Source: Selaginella tamariscina (lineage: Eukaryota > Streptophyta > Lycopodiopsida > Selaginellales > Selaginellaceae). Taken from it: a stretch of DNA of 64,000 nt. The position numbers and the translations under genes are program-made. The stretch covers positions 868,805 to 932,804 of the forward strand of contig PUQB01000098.1 in the NCBI GenBank assembly GCA_003024785.1. Direction: 5' to 3'. Positions 12,286 through 63,178 of this stretch are shown here, in pieces (the stretch's first letter is position 1; every line of letters begins with the position of its first letter). A model generated the notes under the pieces. That model did not search any database and was not told the DNA's origin. It saw only the letters and a list, made by a program, of their open reading frames with translations.

Positions 12286-12358
12286 TGGCCCCAGCGAGGT
12301 TCGAACTCGCGACCTTCTGCGTGTAAAGCAGACGTGATAACCACTACACCATGGGACC
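12286..12358 (-). tRNA. tRNA-Val (UAC)
   Basis: On the minus strand a 73-base cloverleaf starts GGTCCCA and ends TGGGGCCA, which pair as the acceptor stem with discriminator A. The anticodon stem TCTGC/GCAGA encloses the loop TTTACAC, giving anticodon UAC. The T arm contains GTTCGAACC (B box) and the D arm TGGTGTAGTGGTTATCA (A box). There is no intron and no encoded CCA, as expected of a nuclear plant tRNA gene. Confidence 0.97.
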
Positions 12359-14864: not shown

Positions 14865-17302
14865 GTATATACACCCATAAGGTACATAAATATACAGGTT
14901 GAGGAGTATACCTTCCTTTGGGAACATGAAGGGGCTTGATTATGTTGATCTTTCGGAAAATGCCTTAAACCATGGAGTGCTTACAAGCCTTTGTGAAGCC
15001 ACTAGCATTCGTCACCTTGATCTCCATGGCTCAATTGCCTCTTCAAGACAGGTGCATGCGTGCGTGCGAGTGTTGTGTGTGTGTGTGATATTTTTATAAG
15101 TATGAGAGTGCATATTAAACACAATTTATACACGCATTTTCAGCACTATATGCTATTATACAGTGATATATATAATCAAAGTATATTAGTATATAAACTT
15201 GTACATATTTAATATATAATATATTACTAATTATAATTAAACAGATACCTGACTGCTTAACAACCTTACGGCACTTACCTACCTTGACATCGGTCATGAC
15301 GGGTTAACCGGTCTTATCCCAGACTCCATAAGTCATCTCGCAAACTTAACCTTTCTGAAGTAAGACTGTGTGTGTGTGTGTGTGTGTGTTTAATGTGCTT
15401 ATATTTACAGCCTCGAAGGTAATGAGTTTGTTGGGGGAGTTCCATACGGTTTAGGCCAGCTTAGCGGCTTAACATACTTAAACATTCAAGACACATTTGA
15501 GAACAACACACGTACAATACTACCACTTTTCTGGGGGTTTAACAAGTCTTAGAACACTATTATTATCTGGCTCTGCATGGAGGGGAATATACCCAGCAGT
15601 ATTGGGAATCTGACAAGTCTTGAGAGCCTTCAGATCGAATATGCGCCGAATCTGGAGGGTGTTTTGCCTAATGAGCTCGCTAAACTCACTAATTTGACGC
15701 AGTTACTGGTGTTTAATACGGGTTTATACGGTCCTCTGCCTTCCAGTCTCGGAAGCTTATCGCAGCTTCAGGTTGGCATATGTATACACTTATGTACATG
15801 CATACATGAGTATATGCACATCAGACGTGTACTCACGTGCATGTATATAACACGCACGCGTGCACACACTTAGACACACCACTTTACACTACAGGAGCTT
15901 ATTCTCGAAGGGAATAGGTTGAGCGGTTCGATACCCAGAAGCATCGGAAACCTCCGGGAGCTCACAGTACTTCAGCTGGGGTCAAACAATTTGACCGGTC
16001 AACTCCCCTGGGAAATTGGAACCTTCACAAAGTCAACTATATGGCCCTTTCCAATAACTCCCTGTCAGGAAACATTCCCGGGTCACTTGGGAACATAGAC
16101 CCGAACGGAACTCTCGACCTGTCTGCGAATTCATTTTCCGGGAATTTCCCGGTGGAACTTTGCCGTCTCCGAACCGTGATACTAAGAAACAACCTGATCG
16201 GAAACCTCACCGACGGCTGGCCTCCGGTAACCAACCAGATACAACTCCTAGACATTTCCCGTAATAACCTGACCGGGAAAATTCCTGACTGGCTTGGAAG
16301 ACAGCGGAACATCCGGACACTTGACTTGTCGGAGAACAACTTGACAGGGAATATTCCTGCGTGGGTCACAGGCAACACCTCGTTGAGAGAGTTAGACTTG
16401 TCCCGTAACAGTCTTACCGGCGGCCTTAAGTACCTCCCCATGATCAACACCGTCAATTTGCAGGGCAACCAGCTTAACGGCTCCATTAACTTCAACTTCT
16501 CTGTCCAAATTGTCAATGGTATGTATAATACACACGCACATACATACACACATATTGATTGTATATGTGTATTGTATGTTTGTAAGGGTCTAGGTGGACA
16601 GTTCCTGAGACGGGCGTAAAGCGTAAGCAGGCAACAAGTGTATACGGACGTGGACGGAGAGTTTTTGATGAAGATGAACCAGCTGCTTTCGGAGTATACC
16701 ATCTGGACCTCTCGGAGAACCGTTTCACGGGGGAGCTTTCAGGAGCAGATGCATTATCCACCGTTGAATACCTCTCTCTCGCTGGAAACAACTTAACCGG
16801 TGAGATTCCCGCCTACTTCTGGACACCTTTGAGGGACATCTCGATCTTGGATCTCTCCAACAATGCATTTTCCGGTGGGATCTCCATTGGGATCGGCAAC
16901 TTGACAGGACTGTATAGACTCAACATGTCCCATAACAGTCTCTCAGGTGAGACACTAGAGAGAGAGGGAGAGAGAGAGTAACAATCTTTCAGGTGAGATT
17001 CCGACCACCATCTCTGGTTGCACCGCACTTTACATAATGGACCTGAGCAATAACCAGTTAACCGGAGGATACCTTCAGAGTTAAGTCAGGTAACCATGCT
17101 TGATTTTCTAGACCTGTCCCAGAACGAGCTTAGCGGGAATATACCGAGTTCACTGGATAATCTTCTCTTTCTTAATTACTTCAATGTTTCGGCTAATAAC
17201 CTCACGGGTTCAATCCCCCAGGGTGGTATTCTCTCCAAGTTACAGCCTTCTAGCTTTGGGCTTAACCCAGGACTGTGTGGTAGTCCCCTCCCGCCATGTT
17301 AA
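13957..17302 (+). CDS. Secreted LRR receptor-like protein, copy 1 (frame-broken)
   Basis: An extracellular plant-type leucine-rich-repeat protein of the RLP/LRR-only kind. MRGKLVLVLVVLLLFIGYGG is a signal peptide. It is followed by an LRRNT cap (CSSRDYNALVRFKSSLVDDH; ADCCFWNGITCN) and repeats of LxxLxLSxNxLxGxIPxxLGN type, for example LDLSRNSLTGGL and NNLTGNIPAWVTGN. Exons lie near 13957-14156, 14315-14515, 14588-14813, 14898-15051, 15245-15359, 15411-15771, 15895-16518 and 16587-17302. The end FGLNPGLCGSPLPPC is the usual LRRCT cap. No transmembrane helix or kinase follows. Frame breaks occur near 14702, 15290, 15550, 16030 and 17080, so it is either a decaying gene or has assembly indels. 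Most introns fall between repeats and carry microsatellites. Confidence 0.8.
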
Positions 17303-17490
17303 CTTCGTATTTGAATCAATACAATCATATCATTATCGTATGTATCGTGCGTACTGTGTGTGTATGTGTGTGTGTGAGAGAGAGAGACGGTTACACATTC
17401 ACACTCTGTATGTACGAGTGGGGAAATTAGAGCCCAGTGGACTCCTGTCCTACCGCGTTGAAACTCTTTCGTTATGTATGAATTCTTACA

Positions 17491-17521
<31 letters not shown>

Positions 17522-17788
17522 TGCATATACATATGTGTGTGTTGTCATATTATAGAGTTTAATAATTTGAAAAGAGATTAGTTACCTTTGCATGGAGAGA
17601 ATAAAGCGATGTGTCATAAGAGGAGCGTTCTTTACCTGCACACGAGTTAGGAAACAACAAAAATCAAATATAATGGTATGTGTAGCTTTCACGTTCCTTT
17701 TGTGTGTATGTGTGTGTATGTGCGGGTGTTCATTCTCATGAATATATACAAACTCGTGCCGGACTATTTCAAACAAAAGAGAGAAAGA

Positions 17789-18624
17789 ATGTATTTGTCT
17801 ATCTTCTTTGTTCTTGCTTTCCTCGTTGGATCTCTCTTACTCTTGTGCTCCTGGCGATGCTCGTGCACTGTTGGGCTTCAAGTCGGGGTTCTCGGACACT
17901 AATTCAGTACTTGGATCCTGGACAAACAACACATTGCTGCAAATGGAGCTGCATCACTTGTAACAGGTGCTCTCTCTCTCTCGGCTTCCCGTTCACCATC
18001 TTGCTAACATTTTAATGTAGTAATCTTCTTAAACTTGTAGCTTGTTGCTCATTATCTTGCTAATGCGTGTGTTCTTGTTGATTAATTCTCCAACCAACCT
18101 GTCCACGCTCCTCAAAACAGGTAACGCACGCACGCGCACACGCACACTCACTGCATTTAATATGTGTATTTGAAACAGTGCTGGAAGGGTGAACACATTG
18201 AACCTGAGTACTGTAGCAATGTTCCTGGACAACCAACAGGGGCAATCCTTTATCGCCGACTACATACCGCAGCTTACACAGCTCGAGATACTTGATCTGT
18301 CCAACCTGAACATATCCGATAATATACCCTCCTCACTAAACACACTTAAAAGCTTAAGATCACTGTCCTTAAGCAACTGCAGTCTCTTAGGGCGTTTAGG
18401 AGCCTCTCTCTCCAACATGTCCAGTCTTAAGGAGCTTGATTTATCTTATAATCTGTTTGGTGATGATAATTATCAGGGAGATGCTTCCAATATATGTACA
18501 CTACACGGCCTTGAGAGGCTTTCCATGGCTGGGTTATCGTCTCTGCTACCATCTATACCTTCGTGTGTTGGACAGCTTACGAACTTAACGTACCTTGATT
18601 TCTCCTCCAATGCTCTTTCACAGG

Positions 18625-18671
<47 letters not shown>

Positions 18672-19937
18672 AAGGATTTGATATATATACACACATACAC
18701 ACACGTACACACACGGTTGTGTATCTATCAGGTATTTCCTCCGGAGATTGCACAACTAACGAAGCTCAGGTACCTCGACCTGAGCAACAACTACTTCACA
18801 GGCAATCTCCATCCGCTATGTTCCTTGCTTAACATGGACTACCTCAACTTGGAGCTCTCATTTGAGGCTATAAACAGTACGGACACCGGAGCCCAGATTC
18901 CCTACTGCATAGCTAACCTCACAAAGCTGTCTGAACTCCGCTTGTCAAACTGTTACTTGGTTGGCGAGATCCCGGACTCCATCGGACAGCTCACACAACT
19001 AAGGTGTGTGCATCTTGCACACACACATGCAGCATCTACTTATTTGTACATACACATGTACACATATACATACAGGTATCTTGCTCTGGACGGGAACTTA
19101 TTCAGAACTCGTATACCGGAATCACTTGGTAACCTGGTCAACCTCGAAGTACTCATTTTGAATCGGGATTCTATGGGAGGCGGTTCATTCTACGGACAAA
19201 TCCCGTCCTCACTCGGGAATCTCCGGAAATTACAGGACTTAGAACTCTCCAGTGCAACGGAGTATCCGGGAATATCCCAGAAAGCTTCAAGAACCTTGAA
19301 CAGTTGGACACACTCGTTCTAAGCAACCTCGGAATCGAAGGTGTTGTGGCCGGGGAATTATTCCAGCATCTCGGGAATGTTAAATACCTGGACCTTTCAC
19401 AGAATTTCCTGTCTGGGAACATTCCCATCACGATAAGCTCCATGGGTCTGCTTGAGGAGCTCTATTTTTAACAACAGCTTCGCAGGTCCGATTCCGGGGG
19501 AACTCTCGAGTTTGACTTCGCTGACCATGTTGGACCTGTCTAGCAACGAGCTTTCTGGTCAGCTACCGTCAACGCTCGGAAAGTTGACCCAGTTACAGGT
19601 ACGTGTGTGTGTGTGTGTGTGTGCGTATGAGATGAATAATACAAATAATATGACATACATGCAGGTGCTTGATCTGTCATCAAACGATCTGACGGGGGAG
19701 ATTCCAAAAGAGATTGGTGGGCTGAAACAACTTGGTACGTTGGATTTGTCGTGGAATCAGCTGACAGGGAATATTCCGGCAGAGCTTCATAGCCTGAGCT
19801 CACTTGAGTACTTCAGTGTGGCTGATAATAAGTTATCCGGCCAGATTCCGGCAGAACTCACCGGGTTTGATGCTTCTTCTTTTGAGGATAATCCTGGGCT
19901 CTGCGGCATTCCACTTAATGCATGCATTTATAATTAA
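17789..19937 (+). CDS. Secreted LRR receptor-like protein, copy 2 (frame-broken)
   Basis: A tandem paralogue about 490 bp downstream of copy 1. The signal peptide is MYLSIFFVLAFLVGSLLLLC. A cap with CCKWSCITCN ends exon 1 at 17966. Exons 18179-18623, 18732-19003, 19076-19598 and 19664-19937 hold LRRs such as LEILDLSNLNISDNIPSSLN, YLDLSNNYFTGNL and LDLSSNDLTGEIPKEIGG. The end is FEDNPGLCGIPLNACIYN then stop, so there is again no membrane anchor or kinase. Three or more frame changes are needed: two within exon 1 and others near 19258 and 19470. The extracellular location and the pattern-recognition or PGIP-like binding role are inferred from the family only. Confidence 0.8.
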
Positions 19938-31178: not shown

Positions 31179-33071
31179 ATGGTAAATACAGCACAGCCGG
31201 ACTCTATACAGAACCATAGCGAGACGTCTGAAATCATGCAGGAACTCCGAGGTACAGCATATACACACGGAGATCCAACGCAGCGAGCACGCAGGAGCAT
31301 ATACCTAGAGAATCTAGTGCTTGCGACGTACGGGAAGCACGGAAAACTAGAGGAATCCAAACGGGTCTTTGACAGACTCAACAGGCCCAACAATGCATCA
31401 TGGAACCTCATGGTTCAAGCATATGCCCAGAATGGGCATCTGCAGCAAGCCAACGAGTTGCTGGATATCATCCCAGGAAGCAAGGTTGTAGCTGAGAATT
31501 CACTTATATCTGCATACTATCAGCTGGGGATTTACAATCTGCAAGAGAAATCTTTGATAATATGTATGAAAGATCTGCTGTTTCATGGAACACAATGTTT
31601 ACAGCATATGCCCAGAAAGGGCATCTACAAGAAGCAAAGAAAGTCTTGTATAGCATGCCGGAACCGAACTTATACATACTCACTTCCACGCTTGTGGCAT
31701 ATGCACACAATGGAGAGTTAAGAAACGCAGAGGAGATCTTTGATAGCATGCCTTGTAGGGATCACGTTTCGTGTACTGCAATGGTTAAGGCATACTCACA
31801 TAACTTGCAGGCGGGTAACGCAGAGAGGGTGTTTAATGATATGCTTGAATGGAACGTGGTCACATGCACGACCATGTTAGTGGCATATGCCCAAACGGGG
31901 CATATGGAATCTGCAAAGAGAATATTCAATGCCATGGAAGAGAGAAACGTGGTAACTTACACCTCAATGGTACAGGGATATGCCCAACATGGGCATATAC
32001 ACGAAGCAGAGGATATCTTTCAGAGGATGCCCGAGCGGGATATGGTAACGTATACTGCCCTTCTCTCTGGGTATACCCAGAAAGGGCATGTAGAGAAGAC
32101 GAAGGAGACATTCAACGATATGCCCTTTTGGGACTGCATTTCCTGTAGCATCATGCTGCAGTGTTATATAAAAACTGGAGAAATTCACAAGGCAAGGAGT
32201 ATGTTTGAGGATATGCCGGAGAGGCACATTACTGTATGGAACATAATGATACAAGGCTACGTTGAAAACGGGTGTCTAGAAGAGGGGAAGGCTTTGTACG
32301 ATCATATGCCTGTACACAGCGTTGTAAGCGGGAACATAATGCTTCGTGGTGCACGTAGCGTGGAGGAGGCCAAGTGTGTGTTTGATGGAATGCCGAGTCG
32401 GGATATGGTGAGCTGGAGTTCAATGATCGAGGATATGCCCAAGAAGGACATATCAACGATGCCAAACTCTTGTTTGAGAGTATGCCTTATGTAGATACTG
32501 TTGCGTGGACTTGTATGTTTGGTGCATATGCCCAAGAAGGGCATCTGGAGCAAGCCAGATGTATGTTCTATGGTATACCTGAGAAACAAGTAATAGCTTC
32601 AAATGCGATGGTTACTATATATGCCCAAATGGGGAATACACACGATCTGAGAAGACATTCAACAGGGCTCCGGAGAGAGATATTATATCTTGGAGTACAC
32701 GTATAGCGATGTATGCTCAGAATGGAAAACCCAAGGTGGCTATTGAGCTGTTTTGGTGTTTATCTCTTGAAGGTTTGAGTCCGGATGTGAGTATATTCAA
32801 GAGTATATTATCGGCTTGCAGTCATATTGGGGATGTAAAGGATGGTTATAAGTACTTTGTATCTATGAATAACGACCATGGTTTAGTTCCTGAGCATGAT
32901 CACTATTCGTGCATGGTGGATGTTCTTGCGAGGTGTGGGGAACTGCAGGATTGTGAAGAGCTGGTTAAGTATGCCTTTCTTACCGGACTCTGTGTCTTGG
33001 TAACTCTGTTTGCCGGGAGTAAGTTGCATCGAGATGGGGATCGCATATCCAGACTGTTGAAGATGGCATAG
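31179..33071 (+). CDS. Pentatricopeptide repeat (PPR) protein, intronless, frame-broken
   Basis: PPR proteins bind organelle RNA one base per repeat. The region has no intron and encodes about 14 repeats, many 31 residues long (S-type): NNASWNLMVQAYAQNGHLQQ, RDHVSCTAMVKAYS, RNVVTYTSMVQGYAQHGHIH, RDMVTYTALLSGYTQKGHVE and ERHITVWNIMIQGYVENGCL. The C-terminal part has SPDVSIFKSILSACSHIGDV and HYSCMVDVLARCGELQDCEE, like the L/S repeats that precede E domains. It stops soon afterwards (ISRLLKMA), with no full E or DYW domain. Frame changes near 31545, 32430 and 32650 interrupt an otherwise continuous repeat array. Start ATG 31179 (MVNTAQPDS) gives no clear targeting peptide. It is either a recent pseudogene or a gene with assembly indels. 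Confidence 0.85.
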
Positions 33072-55331: not shown

Positions 55332-55342
55332 CGTACAATGTG
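55332..55342. repeat. Target-site duplication, left copy
   Basis: CGTACAATGTG, identical to 63168-63178, directly flanks the element's left end. Confidence 0.85.
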
Positions 55343-55365
55343 AGGATTAGCAAAAACCGGGCTTC
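55343..55365 (+). repeat. Left terminal inverted repeat
   Basis: AGGATTAGCAAAAACCGGGC plus TTC. It pairs with the reverse complement of 63145-63167 at AG, CAAAAA and GGGCTTC; the bases between differ. Confidence 0.7.
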
Positions 55366-55383
55366 GTACAACGGGCTTTTCGC

Positions 55384-55441
55384 ATATTCCCGAATATCCA
55401 GGAATATTCTGTCAAATAAAAGGGAATATTCTAGAATATTC
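55384..55441. repeat. Left subterminal GAATATTC cluster
   Basis: GAATATTC occurs at 55402, 55424 and 55434, plus a diverged pair at 55384-55397 (ATATTCCCGAATAT). The right pair reads GAATATTCTAGAATATTC, which also fits a four-unit heat-shock element (GAAnnTTCnnGAAnnTTC). The cluster lies downstream of the transposase stop. Confidence 0.8.
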
Positions 55442-55465
55442 TGCCAAGTAGATTATCTTTAACTT

Positions 55466-58400
55466 TCAATATAAAATGCCGACCAACAAGTGAAAAACGC
55501 TAATTATTTGCCGACTAGACTTTACTATACCGACTAAACTTAAAAGTCGCAGGTTCGACATTGCGCTTGCAACAACCAATAACCGATGCACTTCTGCTGG
55601 AGTAAGGGTCCGCCTCTGTAAGAAGTAAGTAATCGTTGGGTCTAATCCAAGAACATGAGTGTACACAAAATACATGTGTTGGCAGGGGCTCCAGTTCTTG
55701 GCTTTCTGAAAAGTTGCACAAGTGCATGACGGAACAGCAGAAATTGTTACCTTAGCAGATTGCATGCCTGCAGAGACAATGAAGGCCTCAGTCTTCCCTC
55801 TTTGAACCACCTCCACGTTGTTGATCCGACCTTGAAGAATCTTTGCCTGGTTGTAATGTTTCTCATGTTCCTTGGACATTCTTGTTGGTGTTCGCACACT
55901 CCGTCCATGGTATGTTGGTACTCTATGTGCTCCCTCTCCTCTTGGTGGTGATGGTGTTCGATCCATTCGGCTACTACTGTCTACCATTTCTTCAAATCCC
56001 TCCAACTTGAATCCTGCTTTCAGAAGAGCTTCAACCTCATTTGCATTCAAGTTTGTTCCTTTTTGAACTGGCCAAACCTCTGGAACTTCTGGAATACTCT
56101 CAGGAGGAATCCCTGCATATGGTCGTCTGAAGCAACAAGAATCGCGTGGGCAGAACCATAGCATCTGATGAGTGAACTCAATGTTCCCAAATGCATTTGT
56201 ATATTGCCGTCTACCGTGAAATCCTGGTGCCGGTACACGATGTGGATATCCTATGGGTCTGCCACACTTGCTGTTACCGTCCTGAGTGAGACCTAGACAT
56301 TTCACCTGACTTGCCTCCCCAATGCGTCTGATGGCCCACTGAGTCATCAACGTCTCTCTTTCAGTGACATTGACATCTTGAAACTTGAGTTTTTTCCTGC
56401 GTGCATTTGGGATGACTTGTTCTGCATATTGTGTGTCATGTCTATGTGTACGAAGTGCATCAATCCCATGGTCCCCAGTTGACGGTTGACGAACGGTTCG
56501 AACACGAACATTTGTTGTAGAGGCAAACTCTGGACTTGCAAGATGCTCTTCATCACTAACAAGATTTGCAAAAGTTGTTGGAGACACTGATTTTCCCGCT
56601 GAAAGTTTCTGCTGTGCACGTTTCAGAAGAGTTTCCATGGAAGGACCTGTGCCTGAATATCTCCCTTCAAATGATGCCTTGACCTTTGCACTTTGGAAAA
56701 CAGCATCTGTTAAATCTAACATTGTTGCCTCCAACAAAGGAACACGCTTCGTCAGCCTTGCTCTTCGTGCTCTTGCATGAACAACTTCGGAGTTGTTAGT
56801 GGTAGGCACATTCGCAACACCATCTTCTGTCAAGTCAATTATCTCTGTCATGGAAATATGATCTTCATGTCTTGCCCACCATGACAGCCATGTTTGCAAA
56901 GCGCTAACGTTACTGGACCTGCCTTCCCAAAATGACTCCAACATTACTCGTCGTTCCAACTTATCTTGGTTGGTTAGTGCTGCAGGCCATGAGCGTGCAA
57001 GGTTCATGTGCTCCTCCCTGTGTTCCTCAAGTATCCACTTCTTTGTAACTTGACGCACTGACTGCATGTAATGGAACAAACAACTCCTTTCTCTTCCTCT
57101 CATCTTTGACCCATTGTTGAAAACTTGACGCAATGCTAACCAAATTGCACCTGACTCATCTGACATGAACCCCGCAAAGTTCACATTATGAAGTCCTTGC
57201 TTGCTGCACACTTGAAGCATAGTGTTCAAAAATTTGATCACCGCCACACTATCCTCCCTGATCATGTCACCATAAGCAAGTGTCACCATCGACCTTAAAC
57301 TACACAAACATAAGTGCATTATATTAGTAAGTATTTTAAAACATAGATATGTTAATACTTACAATGGATCATAGAGATGTATTCCCAGTGTACACCAATC
57401 ATCAATACGATATGTGTGGTCTAGCACCACCCACTGCTGTTCGAGATCACCTCCAGATTGACACCTTCTAATGTAGTCTATTCCGGATCCTGGGCCGGCA
57501 ACTGTCATTTTGAAGATTAAAGGCTGCTCTTCAGCTCCGTTGAGGTCCATTCCGGGTATGTGGATAACATGTATGAATGGGATTGATAGCTTCTTCTTTA
57601 ACTGCAGAAGTCCTTCGTAACCTTCTTTGAAACGAGTGTCTCTTGTTCTAGCCTGAGATATCCATTCTCTTGTTCTACATGGAAAGGTTAAGCATCTCCA
57701 AAAGGAAATAATAATTTTTTTGCTTACCGGCGGTGATTTGTGAGTGGTAGTAGATCTGACAGAACCTTGTCGTATGATACATCTCCAGAATCTGTTACCA
57801 GTTTTTCCAAAATTATATTGCGTGCTGCTTGAAACTCTATGACACGTTGATTAGTTCTTGGGGTTGCAGCGACTGCTTTGTTGATTGTCTCCTTAGCTCT
57901 GTCTTTAGAGACCATGGATTCGGGTGGTCTACGTGGGTGTTGATGTTCTCCAAGATGGATGAAAAGCCTCGTGCATGTGATATCATCTGGAATTATGTAA
58001 TATGCAACAACGGAGCATGTCTGCACTAGAAGGGGCTCATTGTTGCAATGCACACACTTCATTCCAAGCACTCTACCATCTGAAGATAACTGGACTTTAT
58101 CAATGGTGCCCTTAAATTGGCAGTCATTTGCTTTCTTACTGAAGCTGATGAACGGACATGTTTCCTTTACGCATTTCATGTGGCCAATACATGAACTGCG
58201 ACTAACACGAGCTGGAACATTCCAATGTGTTGTGCAGCGTTGAGTCCAGTAATCACACCCATCCTTCCTATTCATCCCTTTGTACTTGTCCTTCATTGTT
58301 TCGTGTGCTGGCAACTCGTAAATCACATTTCCGTTGCAATCTTCTGGGACCTCAGCAACTTGCTGAATCGATGACGAGACCACCAGTTGCTTCCCAATCC

Positions 58401-58707
58401 TACATCTCTGACTATTGCGAAGTATTGTTACCATAGAATTGTCCCGATCTGTTGTCTCCAACCGGAATAGCGGTCCTTTGGAAGGAAGAAGTGTGTAATA
58501 CACAAAACTGCTAGCTCTTGCCCCTTCTGGTTCTACCTCAACATTCGCAGCATCTCCACCAACAACAGACATCAAATGCAGCACTTTAAAAGATTGCCAA
58601 GGTGGAATGTCAAATGCAGACCTGAGATCTGTTTCAAAGACAAATGCAATACCATCTTCATCTGCAGGGAAGTCCTTGTCAACACCATTGTAGCTGATTC
58701 TTGCCAT
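55466..58707 (-). CDS. MULE-type transposase, three exons, 1039 residues
   Basis: Exons 58707-57728, 57674-57363 and 57293-55466 sum to 3120 nt with no stop or frame break. ATG 58707 starts MARISYNGVDKDFPADEDGI. Exon 1 has a Cys/His cluster (CDYWTQRCTTHW; SCIGHMKCVKETCPF; MKCVHCN ... HLGEHQHPRRPP) resembling the WRKY-GCM1-type DNA-binding finger of MULEs. The catalytic core follows: WVVLDHTYRIDDW (first Asp, near residue 415), FAGFMSDESGAIW (second Asp, near 476) and ERSCLFHYMQS (the CxxH of MULE cores, near 502). Near residues 954-970 lies a SWIM finger, CTCATFQKAKNWSPCQH. It cuts and joins the element's ends in the nucleus. The basic stretch ARRARLTKR may help nuclear import. Integrity suggests the element is, or was very recently, autonomous. 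Confidence 0.92.
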
Positions 58708-59671
58708 GTAGCAAAAATGGAACAAACAAAAGTTAAAATTCAAAGACAATGAACATATTACACACGATGGTTAATGTGTTTGTCAGTCGTGAGGCAATCA
58801 TTTCATTGACAAATATTAAAAATAATATTAATTGCGTGCGTCTGGGTAGAAGAGTGAAATTAATTTACTGCGTCTGGGTAGGTTTTTTGTAAATTAAAAA
58901 GTTTTACTATGTACAAGTGGCGATCATGCATGCAATATGTTTACAGAAATTAGGTTGGTTTTTAATTGATTTAGGGCGGCTAGGGTTTTGCAATTAGGGC
59001 GGCTAGGGCAGCTAGGGCGGCTAGGTTTTCGTGGAGCAGCGGCGCATTTGGGGGCATAGCGTGGAGCAAGTGTGGCTCCAGGGATTAATCACAATAGGCT
59101 TCCATTGAGGGGGTGAGTATTTTCTGATTTCTTCATGATCTGCTCATGATCTTTTCATGATCTGTTCATCTTTTTACATCTCTTCACAGTTGCAAGAAAT
59201 CCGAGTCGGCCTGCCGACTCGGACTGACTTCGTTGTCCGTCCCAGTCGGCAGGCCGACTGGGGTGGACTGTTCCAGATCCAGTCAACATTTTGACCGGGG
59301 TTGACTGTTCCAGCCCCAGTCAGCATTTTGACTAGGGTTGACTGTTCTAGTCCCACCTAGCATTTTGACTGGGCCTTGTTCGTTCCCAGTCCAGACTGGG
59401 CCTCCCTTTGTTGCCAGTCCCAGTCGGCATGCCGACTGGGACTCCCTTTGATGCCAGTCCCAGTCGGCATGCCGACTGGGCCTCCCTTTGTTGCCAGTCC
59501 ATCGATGGGACTCCCTTTGATGCCAGGCCCAGTCGGCATGCCGACTGGGACTTACAGCAACTGCTCTCTCAGTCGGCACGCCGACTGTGAGGGCTAGTAT
59601 GTTTTTTTAATTTTTATTAAACATCTTTGAACATTTATTACAGTTTTTTTTAAACCTTATTGCTTTTGTAG
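58708..59671. promoter_or_regulatory. Divergent intergenic region of the transposon
   Basis: This 1-kb gap separates the two divergent transposon genes and so should hold both promoters. It contains GGGCGGCTAGG repeats (58974-59030), a likely 5'UTR intron on the plus strand (donor GGTGAGT near 59113, acceptor CTTCACAG near 59188), the palindrome array and an acceptor TTTTGTAG at 59671. The array may thus be in a transcribed leader of the methyltransferase gene. Confidence 0.55.
59201..59587. repeat. Array of palindromes, half-site CCCAGTCGGC
   Basis: Six near-perfect palindromes with 9-11 bp arms start at about 59201, 59241, 59419, 59459, 59528 and 59570. The best are CCCAGTCGGC-AT-GCCGACTGGG (22 bp, three copies). 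Several are 40 bp apart within a unit that also has CTCCCTTTG.TGCCAGTC. Between 59275 and 59370 there are diverged versions (GTC.ACATTTTGAC). Related GCCGACT words lie near both ends of the element (55509, 63043). Confidence 0.9.
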
Positions 59672-62600
59672 ATGCGCTCTTCACAACGTTTACAAGAAAA
59701 GAAGATGAAGGAAGCCTACTGAGAGAGAAGCAGAAGCTAGAGCTGCAATTCAGAGAGGGCGTCGGGTCGTGGGAGAGGAAGTAGGAAGCTGGCTGTTTCA
59801 GGAACAAGGACCTTCAAGTGATGCTCCAGTTGAACAGGCAGCCAGCAGGACTGGTCAGGAGAGCAAGAGGATGTGTTCAACCCCAACAAGAACAATCAGA
59901 CTTTGTTGAAGAAGTTGAGGATGATGTCTTACCACAGGAGACACAGGAGCAGACAGAAGGCACACAAGCCTCATGCGCAGTGACTTTGTCGAGTGACGAA
60001 GAGGATGAACCCAAAACAGAAGAGACGACGCAAAGCTGCTGGAGATTCAGAGGCTGCTAAGAAGAAGAAGAAGGGTAAAGCAGAAGTGCCAGATAATGAG
60101 GAAGTTTACAACATTGCAGCCAGCATGCATTCGGAGAGTGCAGTGCGTCTTCTCGCGAAGATCACAATCCGAGAATATGGAGAGGCACCGGATGTCCCTA
60201 TTTGCCGAATTCTGGGAAATGAGCAGGTGCGGAGAGTCAATCCAGCGGATCTGGAATCTTTGACTAGGAGTTTCAAGAAGGCAGTTGGTTATTTGCGCAA
60301 CACCACTCAGTTCATCCTTCAAGTTGGGGACCCCATGACAGATGCAGATCTGGCAGCATTGAGAAGCGATGAAGCGATGTATGCTCAGCATTTGGCTTTT
60401 GAGGAGGAGCTTCAGTCTGACATGTTCCGGCAATGGGCACCAATGCTTTCGATGAAGAAGTTCATCTGTTGGGATGGTAATCACAGGCTAAAGGTGCTTC
60501 AGAAGCTGTACATAGAAGACACGGAAGATAAGAATCAGTGGGCATCGTGCTGGGGTCATGGATAATCTTCAGCTTGTGACAATGTTTCAGCAAATTAATA
60601 GGTAAACATAGTGACCTCTAGATCATAGGATTAACTAACTTCGAGATTTTCAAATATGCAGTTCCTCCGCAACGGCAGTGCAAACCACACTGCCACATCT
60701 TCTGCTATCTGTGAAGACATGTTGCACCAGTGAGGAGGGCACAGCGAAGATCTTGGCCAGGCTCAGTGACAAGGAACGAGATGACATAAGAAAGTGGAAG
60801 GAAAGCGCACTGGACAACAAGCTTGGCATCCACTTCCGAATTTGATCTGTGCAAAGATTTTTTTGAGGTACCATCTCACACTTATATACTTAGTTGATTA
60901 CGTCTGTGAATTACAGAGTGAGATTGAGGATGATCTTGAGAAGGCTGCAAGGGCATCCAAAGGCAACAAATACCAGGAGCAACAACAGGTCTACATTAAG
61001 CATGACAAGCGCATGATGAAGATCTTAGCCATCATCGATCCTGCATTGGGTGAAGAGTGGTTCGACAAGGTGACCCAAATCACATGGAAACAATGCAGAT
61101 GGATGGGGTTGGAAAAGCTGTACGCGCTTTCAAGGGCGAGAATTCCAAACGAGACGAGAATCATGTACTTCAATAAACTGGTACGTCTCGATCTGAAGAG
61201 AGAGCAAGAGACACTTGGATTGCCGGGTGTTCAGGATAAGGAGTGGATAAGGTGGTTTATATCGATTTGTATTGGCGGCATCAGAGAGGAGGCAGTACAG
61301 ATTCTCACGGGACTCATCGAGGATGGCGAGTGGACAGGCCGGTTACAGATTTCACGACTTGGTACGATGAAGTGCGGGTAAAATGCAAGAACGTGATGTT
61401 CCAGCCATTCCATGAGTGTGTGAAGTTCACTTACTCCATAGAGCCGAAAGAGTTCCTCGAACACGAAGAGACAGCAAGAAGGATGATTTGGAGGTAAGGA
61501 TGATCTTCTTGACATTGTTACATTCTGACACTACTATATGTTCATTACAGGTATGTCGCAGCGAGAAAGGTGCCTCACACACAGACTATGGTATTCTGGT
61601 CAGATTACATGGAAGCACCACACATGTGGTCGAAGACAAGATCTGGCCTGACAGAGTTCGAACGTGTAACGTACCGTTCTGGCTTGATTATCCACCTGGG
61701 CAACCACCAACATGGGAGAAGGATCTCTACAATGAACACTCAAAAGATCTCCCATGCATCTCATGGGATCCGGCAGAGGTCGACTTCATTAAGAAGACAA
61801 AGGCCAAGGCAAAGCGGCGTCAGCCTGTGCAGCAGTCAAAGAAGACTCAGATACAGTAGCTGGCACCTCCACTACTCGCGACCAGCTGCCTTATTCAATT
61901 TATCTGAAGTGCTACCATCGCAGGGAACCATGGACATCAAGGATGACTTGGTCACATTCGTCCCTTCACTTGCTACAACTCGAGGTGATAATTTCTTGGC
62001 GATTGATGACATCGAGGAGATGCAACAGGCCGTGCTCACGGATGAGAAGGAAGAGGAGGTTCCTGCGCTAGACTGGTTCCTTATAGAAAAGTTCAGACAC
62101 AGGTGGCCAGGTACCATACAGCTGACAGCCAGACTCGCTACCAGCATATTGCGGGAGAATATGGTTTCAACTTGGTGATCTTCGACCTTCCAAATGGGAC
62201 CTTGCCAGGAAATACAACGAGTGATACGCCATACCTCTACCTTGATCCAGTGAAGTTCGATGAAGCACTCCAGTTTGCAGGTATGCATATGGCTGCAAAT
62301 GGTTGGTTGGTTGTGTTTGCTGCAGCAAACACCTGGGATCAAGTTGTCCGAGCTGCAAGTGTGGTGGACCTTCAACTTGCTGCAACGTACTACATCTACA
62401 GAGGGCGTGGTTGGGGCTACCGCAACAAGATGAAGGTACTTTTTTCTTTATTCATGAAGTTCATTAATGATTTTTGATGTTTTAACAGGAGAGCATCCTG
62501 CTCCTTCTTGTCTTCCAAGATGCATCTAGAGGATTGCGCGATAATCCGCTGCGTTTGTCATCAACAATTCTTGTTGATAATCCTGAGCGGTTCCAAGAAC

Positions 62601-62950
62601 CATGGTAGGCATTTCATTTCAACAATTTAAGTATTTACCATTATCTTCACATGCAGGATGGACTACCAACCGAAGAGCACTCGATTGATGCAGCTCGTGA
62701 TAGAACGACTCACCCGGCCAGGTGATCTTATCTGGGATATAGGCAGTGGTACGGGGTCCTCAATGCTTGCAGCTATCGAGCTGGGAGAAACATTGTTGGG
62801 ACTGAGAAGAACCCTGAGCTCGGGAGAATTGCTATGAACAGGATTAAAGAGAACATCCAGCCAGAGGAAATCCCAACCCAAGCAATAGCGACGTCAAGTA
62901 GGACTGGTGGTTCACGAATTGCAGCATTGCTCAATCGTAAGAAGAAGTGA
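59672..62950 (+). CDS. ParB-like domain fused to beta-class DNA methyltransferase (frame-broken)
   Basis: Start ATG 59672 (MRSSQRLQEKK) follows a splice acceptor. The N-terminal part is acidic and Lys/Arg-rich with likely NLSs (KQKRRRK, KKKKKGK). The ParB-like domain reads EYGEAPDVPICRILGNEQVR, ADLESLTRSFKKAVGYLRNT and FICWDGNHRLKVLQKLY, with the GNHR motif. A helical linker follows. The C-terminal methyltransferase reads EYGFNLVIFDLPNGTLPGN at the motif IV place, AGMHMAANGWLVVFAAANTW, PKSTRLMQLVIERLTRPGD (motif X), LIWDIGSGTGSSMLAAIELG (motif I) and RNIVGTEKNPE. The order IV-X-I is that of beta-class N6A/N4C enzymes. Stop 62948-62950. Introns lie near 60600-60661, 60871-60916, 61496-61550, 62435-62489 and 62605-62656. 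About eight one-base frame breaks (near 59710, 59875, 60010, 60540, 60830, 61260, 61600, 61855, 62110, 62785) interrupt it. Confidence 0.85.
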
Positions 62951-63071
62951 CAAGTGTTGAATTGTACTCTTTGGTGTTGAAATAAAACTTTAATAATACA
63001 GTATAAACATGGCTATGATTTAAATATTTTTTGTTGTTAATTGCCGACTGAGCCAAAATCCTAAATTCTAA

Positions 63072-63122
63072 GAATATTTAGGAATATTCTAAGAATATTC
63101 TGGTAGATTCTTTAGAATATTC
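63072..63122. repeat. Right subterminal GAATATTC cluster
   Basis: GAATATTC at 63082, 63093 and 63115, with a variant GAATATTT at 63072. It mirrors the left cluster and lies downstream of the methyltransferase gene. Confidence 0.8.
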
Positions 63123-63144
63123 CGGGTCCAAGCCCGGAAGCCCA

Positions 63145-63167
63145 GAAGCCCTCTTTTTGTCGGGACT
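63145..63167 (-). repeat. Right terminal inverted repeat
   Basis: Read on the minus strand: AGTCCCGACAAAAAGAGGGC plus TTC. Three GGGCTT words follow within 40 bp, as on the left. Confidence 0.7.
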
Positions 63168-63178
63168 CGTACAATGTG
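63168..63178. repeat. Target-site duplication, right copy
   Basis: CGTACAATGTG, identical to 55332-55342. Confidence 0.85.

Follow-up and report, generated by a model that had tools for sequence, protein, structure and literature searches.

MuDR, in which the helper gene mudrB stands beside the transposase gene, is a two-gene Mutator-like element (MULE). VANDAL21 is another plant MULE with an accessory gene, VANC, whose 9-bp motif lies in variable tandem repeats in non-coding DNA, including the DNA upstream of the transposase gene (PMC5735166). The Sola1-1_Ec32 transposon of Ectocarpus carries an accessory protein that joins a ParB-like region to a methyltransferase, and green- and red-algal transposon proteins of this kind are cited in the same report (PMC12477816; the citations include Iyer 2011 and Petroll 2025). 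As far as the parts of the literature used here go, the ParB-methyltransferases of eukaryotic transposons have so far been described for algae, as sequence predictions. Here, we describe a transposon in a 64,000-nucleotide stretch of the Selaginella tamariscina genome (contig PUQB01000098.1, positions 868,805 to 932,804; hereafter the window), in which a transposase gene of MULE type stands head to head with a gene for a ParB-like/methyltransferase protein. The best explanation of the data includes an autonomous Mutator-like DNA transposon family with two divergently transcribed genes.

Like Sola1-1_Ec32, the element encodes on the strand opposite the transposase an accessory protein of about 1,000-1,100 amino acids with a ParB-like region and an N4/N6 methyltransferase domain (PMC12477816). 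Unlike that 21.5-kb Sola1 element of a brown alga, it has a MULE-type transposase, a size of 7.8-8.1 kb, at least 150 scored places in the genome, a motif array and a noncanonical motif IV; the algal proteins are compared by their published descriptions. It shares with VANDAL21 the combination of a plant MULE and an accessory gene, but no methyltransferase domain is described for VANC, also compared by description, in the parts of that report used here (PMC5735166). The target repeats of VANC vary considerably between related elements, whereas the half-site reported below is common to two very old families (PMC5735166). The likeness to MuDR and mudrB is one of two-gene layout, and we claim no kinship of the helper proteins. 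A ParB-like part fused to an N6/N4 methyltransferase domain is also found in Bce_0392 of Bacillus cereus, compared by description (PMC5512222), and, as we read it, in a plasmid protein that we denote L050; the latter differs from the element protein in having 481 amino acids, a canonical DPPY motif and no middle region of such size. The N4C methyltransferases of Marchantia and bdelloid rotifers are likewise bacterial-type entrants into eukaryotes, but they are host genes and not genes of an element (PMC8885841). Virus-borne Mariner elements also carry a methyltransferase gene beside the transposase gene, but they have a transposase of another superfamily and other methyltransferase domains, and no ParB-like part is mentioned in the parts of the report used here (PMC3627910).

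Ends, copies and transposase of the element

The genome searched comprises 300,702,823 bases in 1,391 contigs. The leftmost 1001 bases of the element have 40 scored places in it at 99-100% identity (40 of 638 candidates were scored), and the 20 best-ranked matches after the window itself were fetched. Two of these (L009 and L023) are cut by a contig end and were left out. All 18 other full-length copies are collinear over the element and hold both genes, head to head. The copies were picked on the transposase side, so the presence of the second gene was no selection criterion. The earlier note on this DNA, made from the letters alone, had assigned the second gene to the element and had looked to further copies with both genes between the same ends; sought in the element's own genome, these exist in 18 of 18 cases, which rules out a one-off neighbour gene. 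The ParB-like region of the second gene has 151 genome matches (150 of 1,409 candidates scored) and the methyltransferase region 231 (150 of 2,167 scored; one copy can match repeatedly). The copy number is at least about 150. The median pairwise substitution distance among the 19 copies, hereafter family A, is 0.34% (171 pairs; range 0.10-0.84%), and the family is therefore young. Single-base insertions or deletions, either real or assembly errors, separate many of the copies.

Comparison of the junctions among copies places the boundaries at GAG...CTC, with a 9-bp target-site duplication. The earlier note had seen perfect 11-bp flanking repeats, and CGTACAATGTG is indeed present at 55332-55342 and 63168-63178; however, the copy comparison rules out an 11-bp duplication, which is apparent only because the element itself begins with G and ends with C, letters that the repeat happens to share. 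The duplication is an exact 9 bp in 14 of the 19 copies, including the window copy, and 8 bp in two (L014 and L015), whereas the junction comparison revealed none in L020, L024 and L028 (L024 by eye). The ends, which the same note had called matching, do form an inverted match, but an imperfect one (left GAGGATTAGCAAAAACCGGGCTTC, right in reverse complement GAGTCCCGACAAAAAGAGGGCTTC). These terminal inverted repeats, short, imperfect and of the GAG..CAAAAA....GGGCTTC type, are as expected of a MULE. The target-site duplication of MULEs is 8-11 bp, usually 9 bp, and the length found here agrees with this.

The transposase gene has three exons and encodes 1,018 amino acids in seven of the 19 copies (L017, L018, L019, L020, L026, L027 and L028) and 1,017 in L012; it is shorter in the remaining 10, as read by a simple splice-site script. 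The uninterrupted MULE transposase of the earlier note is open in the window copy once spliced, but with an altered C-terminus and 1,041 instead of 1,018 amino acids, and the Pfam MULE profile PF10551 matches neither the family A transposase nor that of the diverged family B described below. The strings VLDHTYR, FMSDESGA and TTNNSEV and the SWIM string are present in all 19 family A copies, with C-x2-H recognized by eye. The SWIM profile matches the transposase with expectation values (E) of 9.8e-4 (A) and 2.2e-3 (B), both below the Pfam cut-off. The MULE label thus draws on motif order, the SWIM-like finger and duplication length, and should be read as a sequence-based assignment. The same genome contains an unrelated, highly uniform MULE family (L037-L046) that has a strong Pfam MULE match and an open frame of up to about 640 amino acids (five loci translated). 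A profile comparison between our transposase and a recognised MULE family of the genome gave no result, the profiles being too thin.

The second gene and its conservation between two families

The second gene has six exons and five GT-AG introns, and its joined frame is open over 1,015 amino acids in L019 and 1,011 in L028, the two copies in which both genes are open together. Its N-terminal tail holds KKRRRK, which resembles a nuclear localisation signal. The earlier note had described a divergent gene joining a ParB domain to a methyltransferase; the gene, the strings WDGNHRL and WDIGSGTGSS and a PF01555 match bear out this description, but the ParB part is without a library match and motif IV of the methyltransferase reads DLPN. 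The product is probably a nuclear accessory protein in which a ParB-like N-terminal region is followed by a conserved middle region and then by a beta-class methyltransferase domain.

When the genome was searched with PF01555 and 150 of 739 candidates were scored, some places stood apart from the main group in score, and four stretches fetched from these form our sample of family B. The four loci represent one diverged family, being 97-98% identical to each other over the second gene. In the B copy C14, which was read across, the transposase match covers residues 1-1009 of 1018 and the second gene is divergent as in family A; its left end and duplication could not be fixed. The transposase part held by L029 and L030 shows the same divergent order. 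Subterminal repeats resembling GAATATTC, which lie at both ends of family A, also occur near the right end of family B. L031 (C516:756300-761300) is a rearranged B copy with both genes in one direction and without the intergenic array described below.

Between families A and B, the synonymous sites of the second gene are saturated (proportion of synonymous differences, pS, 0.80-0.89), whereas the nonsynonymous distance (dN) of its ParB-like, middle and methyltransferase regions is 0.26-0.40; a ratio to the synonymous distance is not quoted because of this saturation. The methyltransferase domain is 60-63% identical (four B loci, with 116 to 192 codons compared in each), the middle region 56-61% (four loci) and the ParB-like region 53-65% (three loci). 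The linker (45-52%) and the N-terminal tail (40% over 42 codons of one copy) are less conserved. The transposase reaches 64% in L031 (582 codons) and 55-60% in the other three loci, for which shorter pieces were compared (pS 0.65-0.81). All these identities were computed on blocks with a minimum of 12 codons and 30% identity, a choice that gives preference to conserved stretches. The methyltransferase domain is about as conserved as the transposase, and because this is so in spite of saturated synonymous sites, the second gene is a selected component of the element and not a passenger. Within family A, the second gene has 33 synonymous and 42 nonsynonymous segregating changes and the transposase gene has 9 and 11, respectively; the ratio of nonsynonymous to synonymous polymorphism (pN/pS) is 0.35 for both genes.

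These substitution patterns show that selection has maintained the two genes as a pair since the ancient separation of the two families, which upholds the assignment of the second gene to the element. Open frames break at corresponding places in A and B (by eye), which suggests shared introns. The earlier note had envisaged the capture of a bacterial-type methyltransferase; a capture in recent times is ruled out by the saturation and does not accord with the corresponding breaks. MULEs do capture gene fragments, those that have done so being known as Pack-MULEs, and a host or foreign gene caught by chance could have been amplified with a successful element. The persistence of the gene beside the same partner, in the same order, in both ancient families, together with the purifying selection on it, largely refutes this explanation, which we consider very improbable.

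The C-terminal part of the protein matches a DNA-methyltransferase family, as the earlier note had supposed: PF01555 (N6_N4_Mtase) matches residues 923-978 of the 1,015-amino-acid protein with 36.4 bits (E 7.1e-9; curated cut-off 26.7 bits), and the family B protein with 38.1 bits (E 2.1e-9). The family A protein also matches phrog_67 of PHROGs (E 6.3e-12), and a tblastn search of plasmids retrieved Curtobacterium plasmid methyltransferases with 28-29% identity over 77-80% of the query (best E 1e-7), matches that reach the N-terminal half of the methyltransferase region too. Aligned with four enzymes from prokaryotes or phages, the protein has its motif IV position ahead of motif I, which is the order of the beta class. 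Motif IV reads DLPN where these relatives have DPPY (two), DIPY or DPAY. FDLPN is present in 18 of the 19 family A copies (the string is absent in L018, a frameshifted copy) and LDLPNE in all four B loci, and the canonical catalytic motif (D/N/S)PP(Y/F/W) was found in neither family. The motif I string is WDIGSGTGSS in 17 of the 19 A copies, the misses being frameshifted copies, and WDIGSGTGS in four of four B loci.

The aromatic residue of motif IV holds the flipped base, and here an Asn takes its place. Because the motif is DLPN and not DPPY in both families, catalytic activity is doubtful, and 'methyltransferase' names the fold, the enzymatic activity being putative. The change is old and maintained, since both families keep it at saturated synonymous divergence. 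Judged from this altered motif, a role in binding or in sensing S-adenosylmethionine (AdoMet) is about as likely as catalysis. An active self-marking enzyme, guided by its ParB-like part, would place N6-methyladenine or N4-methylcytosine on the element, and the mark alone would be the function, through protection, transposition timing or the blocking of host 5-methylcytosine (5mC). The beta-class N6/N4 domain with motif I conserved in both families and the purifying selection on this domain favour this explanation, and binding with self-modification is what the Ectocarpus authors propose for such proteins (PMC12477816); with Asn instead of the aromatic residue in FDLPN and LDLPNE, we regard it as unlikely, though credible. 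The protein may instead be catalytically dead, with its methyltransferase fold serving a regulator that binds DNA or dimerises and that might, for instance, repress or activate the divergent promoter. METTL14, which supports METTL3, is a parallel for such a regulator. The maintenance of DLPN in both families and the position of the array between the divergent genes are in its favour, but motif I is so well preserved that the protein probably still binds AdoMet, which speaks for its being put to some use, and we also assign this possibility a low probability.

The ParB-like call relies on the motifs VRRVNPADLESL...CWDGNHRL and is thus a candidate assignment. A genome search with the ParB profile PF02195 gave no candidates, this profile is absent from the four records behind L033-L036, and tblastn of the region against phages and plasmids gave chance-level matches only (two records each, E 4-8). 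A scan of viral contigs found no relative, and a single-sequence AlphaFold model of the region was not usable (mean predicted local distance difference test score 43). ParB/sulfiredoxin-like domains have a conserved DGxHR-type motif that follows an R...D..L..S segment; by eye and without a statistic, VRRVNPADLESLTRSFKKAVGYLR...CWDGNHRL resembles the N-terminal part of L050. This protein (L050:295-1740, from a Chlorohelix plasmid) itself reads as a ParB-like part plus a methyltransferase, and the Pfam ParB_N profile does not match its front part either at E 0.01. The middle region of 350 amino acids has no match in PHROGs, NCBIfam, PDB sequences or Pfam.

Intergenic array, host footprint and possible role

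The DNA between the two genes contains a tandem array of short inverted half-sites, numbering 9 to 26 among the 19 family A copies. In these, CAGTCGGC often lies within an 18-bp palindrome, CAGTCGGCATGCCGACTG, of which there are 2 to 11 per copy. The 8-9-bp half-site CAGTCGGCA is found in the intergenic arrays of both families, although their repeat units differ: CAGTCGGC occurs 17 times in 977 bp of family A (L019) and eight times in 1115 bp of family B (L030, array at about 920-1450), whereas the 55,341 bp that precede the element in the window contain a single occurrence. Together with AGTCGGCA, it is the 8-mer most strongly common to the two intergenic regions (lower count 8). When both regions were shuffled 500 times by dinucleotides, the shared lower count never exceeded 4 and thus never reached the observed value; as arrays inflate such counts, a rough array-aware estimate puts the probability of chance overlap at 0.001 to 0.003. 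The regions otherwise share only 9-18-bp matches and one 45-bp stretch at 76%. A second short stretch of the GCGGCTAGGGTTTT type, common to the intergenic regions of A (positions 140-158, L019) and B (291-304 and 335-351, L030), may be another conserved site.

A short motif in variable tandem arrays within the non-coding DNA of its own element is also what characterizes VANC-type systems, and the comparison with VANC drawn in the earlier note gains weight from the conserved array, to which the accessory protein may bind. MULE transposases bind near element ends, and single GCCGACT sites lie near both ends here too, so that the array and the subterminal sites might be bound by the transposase or a host protein while the ParB-methyltransferase acts elsewhere, for instance in replication or repair of the excised element. 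The ParB-methylase of Bacillus cereus has nicking activity (PMC5512222), which would suit such a role. Against this, the sites cluster in the intergenic DNA rather than at the ends, and the 8-mer is found in none of the 10 loci of the unrelated MULE family, a weak control (3,288 bp each, near-identical and around the transposase only). We consider this explanation rather unlikely.

Among the private substitutions in family A, 43 of 58 are C-to-T. Their per-site rates are 1.1e-3 at CG (10 events), 1.4e-3 at CHG (20 events) and 2.9e-4 at CHH (13 events), that is, about four and five times commoner at CG and CHG than at CHH. In family B (three of four loci), the CG rate is the highest, with 14, 5 and 6 events at CG, CHG and CHH. 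Inserted copies thus appear to be host targets, because such a footprint is as expected of CG/CHG methylation in plants. The place of the second gene, the array and the footprint fit an anti-silencing or self-regulating role.

The reading that we tentatively favour, at somewhat less than even confidence, is that of a two-gene MULE whose accessory protein recognises the array and keeps the promoters usable in a VANC-like manner. The protein would use the intergenic array and the single sites near the ends as its address and would act on the element's own DNA and chromatin, keeping two promoters usable against host cytosine methylation; the action of VANC on VANDAL elements would be the model for such promoter protection. 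Least certain is the step in which the protein would work by methylating its own DNA.

Several observations weigh against this reading. The second gene is open in only two of the 19 copies as assembled and broken in 17, including the window copy, which as assembled has frameshifts and 29 stops in the joined exons. The PF01555 match spans only profile positions 164-220 of 221, and PDB sequences score DNA and non-DNA enzymes alike (MboIIA 6.6e-4, ribosomal L11 methyltransferase 1.2e-3), as do NCBIfam profiles (corrinoid-associated methyltransferase 1e-6, CcrM 3.6e-6, both far under their cut-offs). The lost aromatic residue in motif IV may mean that there is no catalysis, and the ParB-like region is without a match in Pfam, PHROGs, NCBIfam and PDB sequences. 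The protein that binds the array could be the transposase or one of the host, and A and B could have the array in common simply by descent. Finally, the footprint shows that inserted copies become methylated, and any anti-silencing is therefore incomplete.

The coordinates of all features are listed in the table below. Elsewhere in the window, a tRNA gene (Rfam) lies at 12286-12358 on the minus strand, and open frames resembling plant pentatricopeptide repeat and leucine-rich-repeat proteins (by eye), partly running through CA/TG microsatellites, lie at 31179-33071 and 15918-19937. Such plant-like genes, together with the CG/CHG footprint, agree with a plant host.

Table. Features of the element in the window (window coordinates; gene models transferred from copy L019)
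Feature	Position	Strand	Basis or remark
Whole element (family A copy), GAG...CTC ends	55342..63168	.	boundaries common to collinear copies
Left 9-bp target-site duplication GTACAATGT	55333..55341	.	
Left subterminal GAATATTC-type repeats	55392..55450	.	repeat family D3
Transposase exon 3, FMSDESGA, TTNNSEV, SWIM-like zinc finger; tail altered in window copy	55466..57299	-	L019 gene model
Single GCCGACT, left subterminal region	55510..55516	.	
Transposase exon 2, VLDHTYR (presumed first catalytic Asp)	57363..57674	-	L019 gene model
Transposase exon 1	57728..58707	-	L019 gene model placed on window, checked
Array of inverted CAGTCGGC/GCCGACTG half-sites between divergent genes, 10 in window copy	59200..59590	.	
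Second gene exon 1, N-tail (acidic and basic) and ParB-like region containing WDGNHRL; frame shifted in window copy	59672..60601	+	L019 gene model, junctions checked
Second gene exon 2	60662..60867	+	L019 gene model
Second gene exon 3, conserved middle region without library match	60917..61493	+	L019 gene model
Second gene exon 4, linker plus the N-terminal half of the methyltransferase domain, with FDLPNG at the motif IV position	61551..62435	+	L019 gene model
Second gene exon 5	62489..62604	+	L019 gene model
Second gene exon 6, motif I region WDIGSGTGSS	62657..62950	+	L019 gene model, PF01555
Single GCCGACT (TGCCGACTGAG), right subterminal region	63043..63049	.	also near right end of family B
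Right subterminal GAATATTC-type repeats	63072..63122	.	repeat family D3
Right 9-bp target-site duplication GTACAATGT	63169..63177	.	

Novelty and implications

The earlier note knew of no described plant MULE with such cargo, and our literature search, with most subscription journals outside its reach, likewise found no MULE with a ParB-methyltransferase among the matches listed. The kind of protein is already known; what seems to be new is its carriage by a MULE-type element, in a host that is probably a land plant, along with the conserved array and the DLPN motif.

The family offers a tractable case, in that it is young and has uninterrupted copies, an ancient second family serves as its evolutionary control, a DNA address can be proposed, and the host, judging by the mutation footprint, methylates the copies at CG and CHG. 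It makes testable whether sequence-specific anti-silencing factors exist in non-VANDAL transposons and whether a plant transposon uses DNA methylation other than 5mC, and the conserved departure from the canonical catalytic motif provides a cheap test of enzyme versus regulator. On a broader and, in our view, doubtful reading, a land-plant MULE lineage would long have employed a ParB-like/methyltransferase protein of bacterial derivation to edit chromatin at an address set by sequence; the protein would read a parS-like palindromic array between the promoters, write a non-5mC mark or block 5mC, and so escape silencing. If this is true, the protein would represent an anti-silencing system that shares its design with VANC by convergence, the two having arisen separately.

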